Source: Zoogloea sp. 1C4 (GTDB lineage Bacteria > Pseudomonadota > Gammaproteobacteria > Burkholderiales > Rhodocyclaceae). From it: a stretch of DNA of 64,000 nt. This document shows positions 3,408 through 53,320 of this stretch, one piece after another. The translations under genes and the position numbers were made by a program. The DNA lies in assembly GCF_009469605.1 (NCBI RefSeq), contig NZ_SSXU01000020.1, forward strand, positions 1 through 64,000, written 5' to 3'. Positions within the stretch are counted from its first letter, which is position 1; the number at the start of each line of letters is the position of its first letter. A model generated the notes under the pieces. The model ran no database searches, was not told where the DNA came from, and was given only the letters and a program-made list of their open reading frames with translations.

Positions 3408-3483
3408 CCGTCACTCAGGCTTGAAGTCGGGCGCAGGGGCGACGCCTGCGCCCGAAGCCGTGTCGATTGCCTGGCTCTCCTGG

Positions 3484-3850
3484 GATGGAGGGCACCCATC
3501 CGACGGCGGTGGCAGCGATGCCTTGCGCGTGGATCTGTCACCCGACTTCGGCTGCGCGCGACCCTCGGCTGGACGAACCTGGAGCCGATGTCGGCTCGCC
3601 GCCCTCCGACTTCGACGAGTTGCGAGCCGACCTCGACTTCCCGGGAGGCGACCGAGGGGGCGCGCCGACCCGGGCAGGGGGTGGCGATCAGCCGATGTCG
3701 CCCAAAAATGAGGCGACTTCGGCCGGGCGCCAGCCTCACTGGGGGTGGCGCGACATCGCCGAGGATGCGCGGGAAGGCAACAGAGGGTGTTCGACGTCCG
3801 ACCTTGCCTGTCGGGGAGGGGGCGTCGGATTGCCTGGAGCACCACCCCGA
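3484..3850. repeat. Degenerate tandem repeat array, period about 21 bp (array 1)
   Basis: This fills most of the 459-bp convergent gap between glpQ and ybdD. Repeat units begin with TTCG, GTCG or CTCG and end with GAC or GAT. Starts were read at 3484, 3505, 3526, 3547, 3568, 3590, 3611, 3632, 3653, 3674, 3697 and 3718, which gives a 21-22 bp period. Phase weakens after 3740, with further TTCG/GTCG starts at 3790 and 3810. A representative unit is 3611-3631 (TTCGACGAG...GAGCCGAC). The open frames across it look like chance products of high GC. I saw no gene or clear terminator here. Confidence 0.6.
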
Positions 3851-3866
3851 AGGTCGGGCACGTCCT

Positions 3867-40157: not shown

Positions 40158-40207
40158 CCCTTCATCCGCACCACCGCGCCTGGTTCTCGAATTTTGCTAA
40201 TGAGTAC

Positions 40208-40236
40208 TTGGCAAAGCGATTATCGATGTCTATAAT
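40208..40236 (+). promoter_or_regulatory. Promoter of tRNA-Pro
   Basis: TTGGCA and TATAAT boxes are separated by exactly 17 bp, a near-perfect sigma-70 promoter. The -10 ends 11 bp before the mature tRNA. Confidence 0.85.
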
Positions 40237-40246
40237 GCGCAGCTTG

Positions 40247-40324
<78 letters not shown>

Positions 40325-40334
40325 AAGAATCAAG

Positions 40335-40368
40335 CAAAAAAGGTCAGTCTTCGGACTGGCCTTTTTGC
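40335..40368 (+). terminator. Terminator of tRNA-Pro
   Basis: A GGTCAGTC-TTCG-GACTGGCC hairpin with an ultrastable TTCG loop and one G-T pair, followed by TTTTTG. It begins about 15 bp after the tRNA. Confidence 0.9.
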
Positions 40369-40387
40369 TTTGTTCCGCCGATCTCCC

Positions 40388-40652
40388 CTCCTCCCGTCCA
40401 AACCTGCTTCAACGCCTCCGCACTTCGATTCGACCTCCCCGAAGTATCTTCGGCACCGCCGGACGACGTTCGGCGCTGGCAAGCACACTTCGTCCCGCAG
40501 AGGACGTTGTTTGGTGACGCCAAACACACTTCGCCGCCGCCAAACTGTGTTCGTCGCGAGCGAGATTGAGTTTGGTGAAAAATATCGACGTTCGACAGTG
40601 CCAAACTGACGTCGGCGGCGAAAAAACAATCTTCCGCCGCGCGGAATCCTTA
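40388..40652. repeat. Degenerate tandem repeat array, period 20-21 bp (array 2)
   Basis: About 13 units fill the gap between the tRNA-Pro terminator and the FUSC gene. Starts were read at 40388, 40408, 40429, 40449, 40469, 40489, 40510, 40530, 40550, 40571, 40591, 40611 and 40632. Consensus is roughly TTCGnCgccGCCAAACnnac; the CCAAAC block occupies positions 11-16 in the units at 40388, 40510, 40530 and 40591. Individual units vary greatly. Mixed 20- and 21-bp spacing breaks any reading frame, so it is unlikely to be coding. Confidence 0.75.
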
Positions 40653-40782
40653 TTTTTACGGTGAGTGAGCTGCATCTCGGCCGTTTTTTTATACCTCTGC
40701 CGTGCAGGCCACGCTTTGCCCGTGACCATCTGCCCGAAGCGCGTTACCCTTGCTTCTCGCTCCCCGCAGATCACTCCCGACC

Positions 40783-48942: not shown

Positions 48943-50634
48943 TCAGGCGGTCGCGGCTTCCTGGAGGCCGAGGGTCTGCTTCATCTTCTCGCGGATCTGG
49001 AACTTCTGGATCTTGCCGGTCACCGTCATCGGGAAGCTGTCCACAAAGCTGATGTAGCGCGGGATCTTGTAGTGGGCGATCTGGCCCTGGCAGAAGGCGC
49101 GCACCTCGTCCTCGGTGAGGCGCTGCCCTTCGCGCACGATGATCCAGGCGCACAGCTCCTCGCCGTATTTCTTGTCGGGCACGCCCACCACCTGCACGTC
49201 GAGCACCTTGGGGTGGCGGTAGAGGAATTCCTCGATCTCCCGCGGGTAGATGTTCTCGCCGCCGCGGATCACCATGTCCTTGATGCGCCCGACGATGTTG
49301 CAGAAGCCCTCCTCGTCGATGGTGGCGATGTCGCCGGTGTGCATCCAGCCGGCCTTGTCGATTGCCTCGGCCGTCTTGGCCTCGTCGCCCCAGTAGCCGA
49401 GCATCACCGAATAGCCGCGGGTGCACAGCTCGCCCGGGGTGCCGGGGGGTACGATGCGGCCTTCGTTGTCGACGATCTTCACCTCGCAGTGGGGCTGCAC
49501 GCGGCCCACGGTGGACACGCGGCGCTCGATGGGGTCGTCGGTGCCGCTCTGGAAGCTCACCGGCGAGGTCTCGGTCATGCCGTAGGCGATGGTCACCTCG
49601 CCCATGTTCATCTTGTCGATGACGCGCTTCATCACCTCGATGGGGCACGGGCTGCCGGCCATGATGCCGGTGCGCAGGCTCGACAGATCGAAGCGCGCGA
49701 ACTCCGGGTGATCCAGTTGGGCGATGAACATCGTGGGCACGCCGTAGCTGGCGGTGCACTTTTCTTCGGCCACGGCCTCGAGCACGGCCAGGGGCTCGAA
49801 GGCCTCGGCGGGATAGACCATGGTCGCGCCGTGGGTCAGGCAGCCCAGATTGCCCATCACCATGCCGAAGCAGTGGTACAGCGGCACCGGGATGCACACC
49901 CGGTCGCCGGGCACCAGGCGGATCGCCTCGCCCACGAAGAAACCGTTGTTGAGGATGTTGTGGTGGGAGAGCGTGGCGCCCTTGAGGTTGCCGGTGGTGC
50001 CGGAGGTGAACTGGATGTTGATCGGGTCGTCGAACTGCAGCCCCTCGCCGAGTTCTTCCAGCTCGCCCAGCTCGTCGCGGCCGGGGCTGACGAACAGGTC
50101 GTCGAAGTTGAGCATGCCGGCGCTGTGCTCGGCACCCAGGCGGATCACGATCTCCAGGCTGGGCAGCTTGTGGGCGCGCAGCAGGCCGGCCTCGCAGTGG
50201 GAGAGCTCCGGCGCCAGATCGGCGAGCATCGTCAGGTAATCGCTGCTCTTGAAGCTGGGCGACAGGATCAGCGCCCGGCAGCCCACCTTGTTGAGGGCGT
50301 ATTCGAGCTCGCTGCGGCGGTAGGCCGGGTTGATGTTGACCAGCACCAGCCCCGCCTTGGCGGTGGCGAACTGGGTCAGCGCCCACTCCACGTTGTTCTG
50401 GGACCAGATGCCGATCCGCTCACCGGGCGCGAGGCCCAGCCGGCGCAGGCCGCAGGCCAGGGCATCCACCTTCTGGCGCAGCTCACCGTAGGTCAGGCGC
50501 ACCTTCTGATGCCGCACCACCAGCGCCTCGCGGCTGCTGTGGCGGGCACAGGCTTCATCAAAGTAACGGCCGATGGTCTGGCCGATCAGGGGCTTGTCCG
50601 ACGCGCCGTGGACGTAGCTCAATCGATTGCTCAT
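48943..50634 (-). CDS. Acyl-CoA synthetase (AMP-binding)
   Basis: A 563-residue ligase of the ANL superfamily. The P-loop is [16 protein letters not shown] (near 195), then YGMTETSP (near 355), [12 protein letters not shown] (near 430) and the catalytic Lys in [11 protein letters not shown] (near 545). In liu-type operons this enzyme probably activates isovalerate or related branched acids, or acetoacetate, to CoA thioesters. The ATG at 50634 has a GAGGAGA ribosome site. It is separated from liuD by 685 bp. Confidence 0.92.
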
Positions 50635-50690
50635 GTGTCTCCTCACACCCGATACTCGGTTTGCACCTGCCAGCTGTACCGCTGGTACTT

Positions 50691-50760
50691 GTAGGTCGGA
50701 CTTCAGTCCGACAACCGTTGCCGGATTAGAGCGTGGTTGTCGGACTGAAGTCCGACCTAC
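50691..50760. repeat. Inverted pair of REP elements, family A
   Basis: Two perfect inverted copies of a 26-base element (GTAGGT plus core GTCGGACTTCAGTCCGAC plus AACC) face each other across 18 bp, about 60 bp upstream of the acyl-CoA synthetase start. Each core is itself a near-palindrome. This is typical REP/BIME structure mobilised by RAYT transposases, though no RAYT gene is in the window. Confidence 0.85.
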
Positions 50761-50883
50761 ATGCCCGATCTGCCGATCTCTGCAAGCACCAGCCTTGGCA
50801 GGTGCGGCTTGGCGAACGTCCGTCTTCGCGGCTCATCCGCCCGATCCGACTGCAGCAAAGTGCTGCAATCCCTTACAAAAGAA

Positions 50884-51306
50884 CCTGTGCTGCAACGCCC
50901 GATGGCGCAAAGGCCTGGCACAAGGCCTTGCGATCCGGGTTCTGCGCTGTGCGGGCGGAGCAGAAAGCCTCGCCTTCACGCTTTTCAGCCAGCCCCGCCC
51001 GCCCGAAAGCCTTGCGGGCGAAGCCTGATGCTTCGGTCGCAAAGCGCGAAACCCTGCGATCCGGGCAATAAACCTTGCGCTTGCAGCCCGCAGCCTTGCA
51101 CGCAAGGTAAAAAGCCTCGCCGCCTATGCCCAAAGCCTCGGGGGGCAAGGCTCAACGCCTTGCGACCGTCCCGAAAAACCTCGCAACCCCGGCTCATACC
51201 CTTGCGGTGCAAGGCTTTGAAGCTTGCGGCCGAGGTTTTGGATTCTGCGGTGCAAGGCCCAAAGCCTTGCTATCAAGGCCGCGGGCCTTGCAGCATCTGC
51301 CGCAGG
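50884..51306. repeat. Degenerate tandem repeat array, period 21 bp (array 3)
   Basis: About 20 units lie between the acyl-CoA synthetase and liuD genes. Clear starts: 50926, 50947, 50968, 50989, 51010, 51031, 51052, 51073, 51094, 51115, 51136, 51158, 51179, 51200, 51222, 51243, 51265 and 51286, with two weaker ones at 50884 and 50905. The mean spacing is 21.2 bp. Consensus is about CCTTGCGGnCnAnGCCCnAAAG: the CCTTGC head and AAAG tail are best kept, the middle is very variable. Chance frames on both strands read as seven-residue repeats (KPC..., QGF...), but they lack ribosome sites. Confidence 0.8.
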
Positions 51307-51319
51307 GCCCGCGGGAGGA

Positions 51320-53320
51320 TCACGCCGCCACCTCGAACTCCACCAGCTCCGCCCCGTCGCCCACCTGATCGCCCACCGCGAAGCGGAAGGCCTTGACCGT
51401 GCCGGCGGCCGGCGCGGTGATCGTGTGCTCCATCTTCATGGCTTCGAGGATCAAGAGCGGCGCGCCCTTCTCGACCGTTGCGCCTTCGGCCGCCACCAGC
51501 GCGATGACCTTGCCGGGCATCGGGGCCAGCAGGCCGCCTTCGGCACCGCCGCCCTCGCCGCCGTGGTGCAGCGGGTCCACCGCCGCAAACTGCCACGCCC
51601 GGCCCTGGCCAAACACGTGACGGCGCTCGCCGGCAACGATCACCGTGGCGGTGGTGCGCAGGCCGTCGAACTCGGCCCGCAGCAGACCACGGGGGTTTAG
51701 GGTGCCGGAGATGTGGCTCACGCGGCCGTCCAGGGCCACATCAAAGCTGTTGCCGCGATGGGTGATGGTGAGGTGCTTTTCCACCTCGCCCAGACGGTAG
51801 ATCTTGCTGCGGCTGGGTGACGAATTCACGCGCCAGCCGTCGCGCCGGTGCCAGGGCGAATCGGGTTCGCAGTGGCGGGCAGCCAGGCCCTGGGCGTGCT
51901 CGCGTTCGCGCAGCAGATCGGCCAGGGCCACGGCCAGCCAGGCTTCCCGGGCGGGCTCGACCTGCTCGGGGAAGAGGTAATCCTTCTCGCGCTCGATGAG
52001 GCCGGTGTCGAGATCGGCGTTGGCAAAGGCCGGGCAGGCGGTGAGGCGCGACAGGAACTCGATGTTGTTGGCGACGCCCACCACCCGGTACTCGGCCAGG
52101 GCCTGGAGCATGCGAGCCAGGGCGCGGTCGCGGTTCACGTCCCACACGATGAGCTTGGCGATCATCGGGTCGTAGAAGGGGCTGATCTCGTCGCCCTCCT
52201 CCACGCCGGTATCCACGCGCACGTGCAGGTTCTCTTCGGGCGGCGACAGGTGCGCCAGCCGGCCGGTGGAAGGCAGGAAGCCCTTGGCCGGGTCTTCGGC
52301 GTAGATGCGCGCCTCGAGTGCGTGGCCGTTGATGGCCAGTTGCTCCTGGGCCAGCGGCAGCGGCTCGCCGGAGGCCACGCGGAGCTGCCACTCCACCAGA
52401 TCGAGCCCGGTGATCATCTCGGTGACCGGGTGCTCCACCTGCAGGCGGGTGTTCATCTCCATGAAGTAGAAGGTGCCGTCCTGGTTGGCGATGAACTCCA
52501 CCGTGCCGGCACCCACGTAGCCCACGGCCTTGGCGGCATCCACCGCGGCCTTGCCCATCGCGGCGCGGCGCTCGGCCGTCATGCCGGGGGCTGGCGCTTC
52601 TTCGAGCACCTTTTGGTGGCGGCGCTGCACCGAGCAGTCGCGCTCGAACAGATACACCACGTTGCCGAAGGTGTCGCCGAACACCTGAATCTCGATGTGG
52701 CGCGGGCGGGTGAGGTATTTCTCGACCAGCACGTGGTCGTCGCCAAAGCTCGACGCCGCCTCGCGCTTGCAGGAGGCCAGCGCATCGATGAAGTCCTCGC
52801 TCTTCTCGACAAGGCGCATGCCCTTGCCGCCACCGCCGGCCGCGGCCTTGATGAGCACCGGGTAGCCGATGGCGTCGGCCTGCACGTTGAGGAAGGCCGG
52901 CTCCTGGTTGTCGCCGTGGTAGCCGGGGGTGAGCGGCACCTGGGCCTTCTCCATCAGCTTCTTGGCTTCGGACTTGGAGCCCATCGCCCGGATCGCCGAC
53001 ACCGGCGGGCCAATGAAGACGATGCCGGCGGCGTCGCAGGCGTGGCAGAACTCTTCGTTCTCAGACAGGAAACCGTAGCCCGGGTGGATCGCCTCGGCGC
53101 CGGTCTGCTTGGCTGCCGCGATGATCTTGTCGATGACGAGATAGCTCTCCCGGGCCGCGGCCGGGCCGATATGCACGGCCTCGTCGGCCAGGCGCACGTG
53201 GCGGGCGCCGGCGTCGGCGTCGGAATACACCGCGACGGTCTTGATGCCGAGGCGCCGCGCCGTCTTGATGACGCGGCAAGCGATCTCCCCGCGGTTCGCA
53301 ATCAGGATCTTGTTGAACAT
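51320..53320 (-). CDS. liuD: Methylcrotonoyl-CoA carboxylase biotin subunit (alpha)
   Basis: A 666-residue biotin carboxylase plus biotin carrier protein. The N-terminus is FNKILIANRGEIACRVI, with ATP-grasp Gly loop KAAAGGGGKGMR near 160 and EMNTRLQVEHPVTE near 290. The biotinyl Lys lies in ILEAMKMEHT near 628. With LiuB it carboxylates 3-methylcrotonyl-CoA in leucine catabolism. The stop lies 13 bases beyond repeat array 3. Confidence 0.94.
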   Translation of the reverse strand: MFNKILIANRGEIACRVIKTARRLGIKTVAVYSDADAGARHVRLADEAVHIGPAAARESYLVIDKIIAAAKQTGAEAIHPGYGFLSENEEFCHACDAAGIVFIGPPVSAIRAMGSKSEAKKLMEKAQVPLTPGYHGDNQEPAFLNVQADAIGYPVLIKAAAGGGGKGMRLVEKSEDFIDALASCKREAASSFGDDHVLVEKYLTRPRHIEIQVFGDTFGNVVYLFERDCSVQRRHQKVLEEAPAPGMTAERRAAMGKAAVDAAKAVGYVGAGTVEFIANQDGTFYFMEMNTRLQVEHPVTEMITGLDLVEWQLRVASGEPLPLAQEQLAINGHALEARIYAEDPAKGFLPSTGRLAHLSPPEENLHVRVDTGVEEGDEISPFYDPMIAKLIVWDVNRDRALARMLQALAEYRVVGVANNIEFLSRLTACPAFANADLDTGLIEREKDYLFPEQVEPAREAWLAVALADLLREREHAQGLAARHCEPDSPWHRRDGWRVNSSPSRSKIYRLGEVEKHLTITHRGNSFDVALDGRVSHISGTLNPRGLLRAEFDGLRTTATVIVAGERRHVFGQGRAWQFAAVDPLHHGGEGGGAEGGLLAPMPGKVIALVAAEGATVEKGAPLLILEAMKMEHTITAPAAGTVKAFRFAVGDQVGDGAELVEFEVAA

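Follow-up and report, generated by a model that had tools for sequence, protein, structure and literature searches.

Between a putative liuD gene and a putative acyl-CoA synthetase gene, the window (the whole 64,000-nucleotide stretch of DNA analysed here) holds a row of units that had been picked out from the letters alone as about 20 highly degenerate repeats, with 18 recurrent heads at a mean spacing of 21.2 bp and no two units identical. Twenty-one base pairs make two helical turns, and the question that this locus raises is whether the spacing, the sequence or neither is what has been kept in such a row, and what kind of element the row represents. The features that bear on it are these:

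50891..51292, no strand assigned: class-1 array of 19 degenerate 21-bp dyad units; 15 spacings of 21 bp and three of 22 bp; chain score 160.8
51320..53320, minus strand: putative liuD (named so in the original prediction), its 3' end facing the class-1 array from 28 bp away
48943..50646, minus strand: putative acyl-CoA synthetase (named likewise), the next co-directional gene, its called start 257 bp from the array
about 50690..50760, no strand assigned: REP-like inverted pair with core GTCGGACTTCAGTCCGAC, between the class-1 array and the next gene, recognized from its sequence and from a count of REP cores in the spacer

The original prediction had staked its case on a 21-bp peak above shuffled controls, and autocorrelation of segment 50884-51306 revealed such a peak. 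Lag 21 gave a match of 0.445 with z 7.8 and was echoed at lags 42, 43 and 64, and none of 1000 dinucleotide shuffles equalled it at their best lag within 15-30. Chaining with spacings of 20-23 bp permitted gave 19 units at a mean spacing of 21.17 bp, all 19 of them mutually different, which bears out the count, the spacing and the diversity described at first. Free EM modelling likewise placed period 21 at the top among periods 18-24, with a score attained by 0 of 40 first-order shuffles. Each unit forms a dyad with some degeneracy, GC(A/G)AGGC-N5-GCCT(T/C)GC (GCAAGGC-N5-GCCTTGC in single-sequence form), followed by 2-3 linker bases, and the row begins on its right side 28 bp past the stop codon of the 51320-53320 gene. 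Tandem Repeats Finder reported just 2.7 copies of all this, at 51201-51258.

A plasmid collection gave no match, and a comparison of 50600-51500 with Rfam returned six weak matches, none of them at the gathering score. The synthetase next to the array has its nearest named relatives in Azoarcus, Aromatoleum and Thauera (84-85% identity), with two MAGs at 91%. Behind the counterpart of the 51320-53320 gene, nine relatives (L005-L013) carry spacers of 118-450 bp that differ in content, several of them with palindromes, and no class-1 array was detected in these nine spacers.

Class-1 arrays and where they lie

A profile search of the genome and its relatives, which had been put forward as a check on the first description, revealed related arrays at further loci in the own genome and in seven congeners, the eight genomes of the genus with class-1 arrays being G000, G002, G009, G014, G017, G018, G019 and G020. 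Direct DNA search of the own genome and its relatives gave a match in 4 of the 60 genomes tallied; one such match, L004 in G011, proved by eye to hold no array. The further class-1 loci came from sequence-only profiles, around whose matches 40 loci were fetched, and 25 of the 40 hold a chain of class-1 units with scores of 33.8-132.7 (160.8 for the window array), compared with a background of at most 16.1 in 708 kb from 80 related loci and at most 15.7 across the own genome's 1.26 Mb once its two arrays are set aside. In the other 15 loci, which came from weaker profile matches (L151, L159-161, L166, L171 and L173-181), class-1 detection was empty. G014 has a class-1 array at the same place as the window array (L002), and each of the own genome's four known class-1 arrays (window, C75, C47 and C129) aligns with an array in G014.

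Beyond the genus, matches became few. A search across the family passed E 1e-4 in 6 of 249 genomes, three of them in the genus (the own genome included), and one of the three matches outside the genus was confirmed as an array (L172 in G270); a search across the order passed in 4 of 399 genomes, these being the own genome and three others. The order-search matches outside the genus (G377, G606 and two in G646) were rejected, all four lying inside called genes. Within the genus, no fewer than 10 of the 23 genomes carry class 1 or class 2 (described below), and some genomes are without arrays in the portion searched.

Location was counted over 26 class-1 rows, with L155, three units within a gene in G005, excluded. 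Where called genes stand on both sides (21 of the 26, orthologs counted separately), the spacer is convergent in 13 cases, tandem in eight and divergent in none, compared with 22 convergent, 133 tandem and 64 divergent among own-genome control gaps of at least 200 bp in 1.26 Mb. A gene 3' end lies within 60 bp of the array in 21 of the 24 class-1 rows that have a 3' end in view, the exceptions being L142 and L143 (85 bp) and L153 (311 bp), and in six convergent cases (L146, L148, L149, L150, L152 and L158) at most 34 bp separate the array from either stop codon. L162, L167 and L172 have a single flank in view, a 3' end; at L144 and L168 the array lies between a 5' end and the end of the contig. 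In G017, 4 of 6 arrays occupy convergent spacers, though only 6 of its 93 spacers are convergent.

The genes themselves are diverse. Pfam comparison of 30 proteins flanking class-1 arrays revealed no common function, left 6 of the 30 without a family match and found no replication initiator among them. The original prediction had placed the array inside the liu gene series, but the arrays are untied to liu genes.

At two sets of loci the surroundings of the arrays differ on one side. At L146:4304-4597 and L157:4296-4526, an array follows a CbbQ-type gene in two species (the CbbQ match was computed for L146 and taken for L157 from a similar end sequence), and the gene on the other side differs, being a glycine transporter in one and a methionine synthase in the other. 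At L147:4300-4614 and L148:3984-4298, one array occurs twice in one genome, 92% alike, each copy following the 3' end of a porin-like gene (identified by Pfam at L148) and with unlike DNA on the other side.

The same period in unrelated sequences

Intergenic regions of 120-1200 bp were also scanned for lags blind to sequence. In the own genome, with 329 such regions in 1.26 Mb, z 5 was exceeded by 12 rows, and 8 of the 12 had lags of 21, 42 or 63, one of the eight, C75:22217, being a plain 7-bp repeat; in G017 (0.4 Mb, 93 regions) lags of the 21-bp type appeared in 6 of 8 rows. The same scan of 0.4 Mb of G005, in the same genus, gave 0 of 1 row with such a lag, and in other genera, at 0.2 Mb each, it gave 0 of 3 rows in G027 and no row at all in G029. 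The absence of arrays from the 0.4 Mb of G005 indicates that the element is not essential. Periods of other lengths were seen as well: two spacers of G027, which belongs to a different genus in the family, repeat every 16 bp with units of GTGGGAGCGGCGGC type (L286:8868-9172 and L286:13136-13635, corresponding to G027:C1:88868-89172 and 93136-93635), and the window spacer 40158-40782 has a lag of 61 bp (z 6.8).

The rows with 21-bp lags do not share one sequence. Class 2, of CTGAGAGAAGCAATCTCAGGG type, was first seen at two places in the own genome and then traced to 11 loci in five genomes (G000, G007, G009, G011 and G014), and its consensus is unrelated to that of class 1. Its placement is less uniform than that of class 1: L306, L307, L309, L311 and L313 lie near a 3' end and L310 in a convergent spacer, C64:187k is closer to a 3' end and C75:304k slightly closer to a 5' end (121 vs 142 bp), L308 and L312 have just a 5' end in view, and L314 lies between divergent called genes. 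Further sequence-distinct 21-bp arrays are present at C64:220k, C64:245k and C53:4k in the own genome, with three to four more in G017, and the window has a second array of its own:

3543..3862, no strand assigned: second window array, family c6, CCGAC-T-GG type, 15 units; ten spacings of 21 bp, three of 22 bp and one of 23 bp; in the convergent spacer 3408-3866

This second array has a lag-21 z of 4.1 and an EM score reached by 0 of 40 shuffles. Family c6 is weakly kept, since the G014 counterpart matches in part (one stretch of 51 bp at 94% and another of 45 bp at 82%) and has its strongest lag at 60, not 21 (L315).

Statistics were gathered over 42 arrays (24 of class 1, 11 of class 2 and 7 others; L153, L155, L172 and G017:93k are absent from the set). 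EM resolved 516 units and 474 spacings, of which 442 are of 21 bp, 25 of 22, 5 of 20 and 2 of 23, with models restricted to 20-23 bp; the autocorrelation scans are free of that limit. Period 21 scored highest in 14 of 14 arrays when 18-24 were tried, and for all 9 arrays that were compared with 40 shuffles each, no shuffle attained the EM score. Profile comparison sorted the arrays into nine clusters at both thresholds (24, 11 and seven singletons). A significant dyad is present in 29 of the 42, made up of 24/24 in class 1, 0/11 in class 2 and 5/7 among the others, the dyad in c3 being not significant and that in c6 borderline. Within-array match spans 0.90, for the near-identical units of C64:187257-188025, to below 0.5. 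That the same 21-letter step recurs despite different letters suggests that the spacing is what is kept.

What is constrained within arrays

The original prediction had held that phase rather than sequence is selected, and the data support the first half of this and qualify the second. Nine families with one 21-bp step speak for phase, as do aligned arrays, inside which lengths differ either by single bases or by complete units (20-21 bp). Sequence matters too, given the dyads and a slowly evolving core in class 1: over four close pairs (C75, C47, C129 and L147/L148, the last within one genome), 8 of the 77 substitutions fall in the CRA/TYG core (positions 3-5 and 17-19) vs 22 expected (p 1e-4), and 1 falls at positions 3 and 19 vs 7.3 expected (p 0.004). 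Substitution rates for each phase of the unit, taken over all pairs, look stronger, and as fast pairs may align non-orthologous units, the four slow pairs were used.

Rates relative to the 4-fold sites of neighbouring genes differ by locus. The C75 array (0.035 vs 0.087-0.150) and the C129 array (0.072 vs 0.186) are slower than these sites, the C47 array is about equal to them (0.139 vs 0.129), and the window array, at 0.487 from its G014 ortholog vs 0.147-0.157, is about three times faster. Constraint is therefore not uniform, and at the window locus units turn over.

Explanations of the arrays

The arrays are a chromosomal element of the genus, in which degenerate units of 21 bp stand in tandem where transcription units end; the element recurs with a fixed period and is mostly dyadic, its arms vary independently, and class 1 has a 3'-end location and a slow core. 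Our best explanation, which we hold tentatively, is that the arrays are phased sites for a putative dimeric DNA-binding protein that marks transcription-unit ends. Each unit would offer two half-sites to be read by the dimer in double-stranded DNA, and two helical turns per unit would place all dimers on one face, allowing cooperative binding or a filament. A row of this kind could form a symmetric barrier at a gene end, limiting how far transcription reads through, or supercoils spread, from both directions, and arrays may have been born with, or have drifted to, different half-sites with period and dyad kept. We are more doubtful of the larger proposal that many transcription units of the genus end in an element whose kept trait is geometry and not sequence, with units exactly two helical turns apart seating a row or filament of protein along a single face and making the arrays two-way seals against read-through and supercoil spread.

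Several observations go against a protein reading: the window array is faster than 4-fold sites and C47 about equal to them, class 2 is without significant dyads, L314 is divergent, terminator-like hairpins near array-side 3' ends are not clearly scarcer than in controls, and a single binding protein would not easily account for nine families. A candidate filament-former is offered by KfrA, which forms filaments on DNA with its sites, the KfrA of RA3 binding five 9-bp repeats, as PMC7783346 describes. KfrA_N is present in 22 of the genus's 23 genomes, and one of 14 control genomes has it with a score under the cut-off, yet its presence does not track the arrays, being missing in G018, which has arrays. 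One KfrA_N protein lies at G000:C52:36003-36356.

Nearly as likely as the dimeric-protein reading is a REP-like satellite, selfish or neutral, that amplifies in 21-bp steps, is tolerated at 3' ends and then decays. To our knowledge no process with a fixed 21-bp step has been described, which counts against it; the range of within-array match is such as births followed by decay would give, the fast window array, the whole-unit differences between orthologs and the congeners without arrays in the portion searched suit it, and conserved cores in close pairs, the rarity of indels other than whole units and dyads in unrelated families do not. Its niche is as published for REPs, which PMC3733652 describes as extragenic palindromes that neighbour 3' ends, in spacers whose flanking genes are convergent or unidirectional, known also as tandem clusters (among others in Thauera sp. 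MZ1T) and with alternative complementary residues in their stems. Class-1 arrays share this 3'-end niche, in convergent or tandem-gene spacers, with REP/BIME elements of the GTAG and CGTC super-families. The REP tag is missing from the arrays, however, with GTAG or CTAC in 6 of 516 units, and the CGTC tag is not enriched (CGTC plus GACG 89 times in 12613 array bases vs 1003 times in 95204 intergenic bases, as raw counts). Unlike REPs, the arrays are contiguous rows with a fixed 21-bp step and nine families, without covariation of arms inside an array. The adjacency to REP elements that had been noted at the window locus extends to the own genome, where a local REP is found in 16 of 350 spacers and 6 strong 21-bp arrays are among these 16, but is weak in G017, where a REP accompanies 1 of 6 arrays; in the own genome, no REP was counted with C53:4k or with the second window array.

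An RNA element, in which tandem hairpins at mRNA 3' ends would protect or terminate the transcripts of both flanking genes, appears unlikely. The 3'-end location would suit it, and single-strand folding of three arrays is better than that of shuffles (z -4.3, -4.8 and -4.4), as is expected from tandem dyads. Pairs changed on both sides in alignment A2 were matched by 2 of 500 shuffles and the covariation score by 11 of 500, and shuffling arms across arrays gave z 1.7-2.1; these cross-array tests are mildly positive, as they would be if arm sequences simply differ from one array to the next. The excess is gone when arms are compared within a unit and between units of the same array, with z -2.3 for Watson-Crick pairs and -2.0 with GU over 29 dyad arrays (2560 cells) and -0.7 and -0.5 over 16 class-1 arrays, and the stem complementarity that REPs keep is not seen within arrays. 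Selected hairpins would need better arm fit within units, and its lack speaks against them, whereas independent arms are as expected if half-sites are read one by one. In addition, nothing about RNA obviously calls for an exact step of 21 nt, and in a simple scan no more than 5 of 31 array-side 3' ends had a terminator-like hairpin within 200 nt (inside the array in three cases) vs 52 of 239 controls, which is not clearly rarer than controls.

We regard as more improbable still a bare DNA-shape or supercoil element, in which helix-phased bending or flexible steps (CR, YG) would act with no dedicated protein. A period common to unrelated sequences and the pyrimidine-purine steps of the conserved core agree with it, but the window array gives z -2.4 at lag 10 and z -4.6 at lag 11, and thus no simple 10.5-bp base phasing. 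The objection that the original prediction had raised against itself, a decayed coding gene, is already contradicted, as is a repeat-rich gene, in either case one encoding repeated heptapeptides: 21 is divisible by three and the R2 match in L317, outside the family, lies within a called gene with a 21-bp period, but 22-bp spacings break the frame, the arrays come after stop codons, and five frames over the window array gave no Pfam family at E 0.1.

Other known repeats resemble the arrays in part. Iterons of plasmid origins and centromere-like arrays are rows of protein sites, the iteron step being near two helical turns, and their sites are few, near-identical and beside rep, par or kfrA genes. 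The arrays have the iteron-like step of two turns (442 of 474 spacings at 21 bp) but, unlike iterons, comprise tens of degenerate units at diverse gene ends, with no replication initiator among the 30 flanking proteins of class 1. Minisatellites, or VNTRs, are tandem units that change length by whole units, a trait common to both; array units, unlike theirs, are mostly strongly diverged yet in register, with one period across unrelated families. CRISPR is excluded, as the units are contiguous and mostly degenerate and not identical repeats with unique spacers. The Betaproteobacterial repeat element BRE is described in PMC3110155 as intergenic and tandem, one sequence family with a unit of about 90 bp and a genome-dependent copy number (one copy in Azoarcus sp. 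EbN1). It is like the arrays in its intergenic tandem copies and unlike them in its unit of about 90 bp and its single family. No element fitting nine families with one two-turn period was found in the literature searched, subscription journals and preprints aside. We also know of none that combines nine unrelated families with such a period. What is new is the description of the element, and the function given to it under the dimeric-protein reading is a proposal.

If the geometry is selected, the arrays would be natural tests of helical phasing and cooperative binding at the ends of transcription. A standard repeat finder is largely blind to them, so that similar elements may be overlooked elsewhere.
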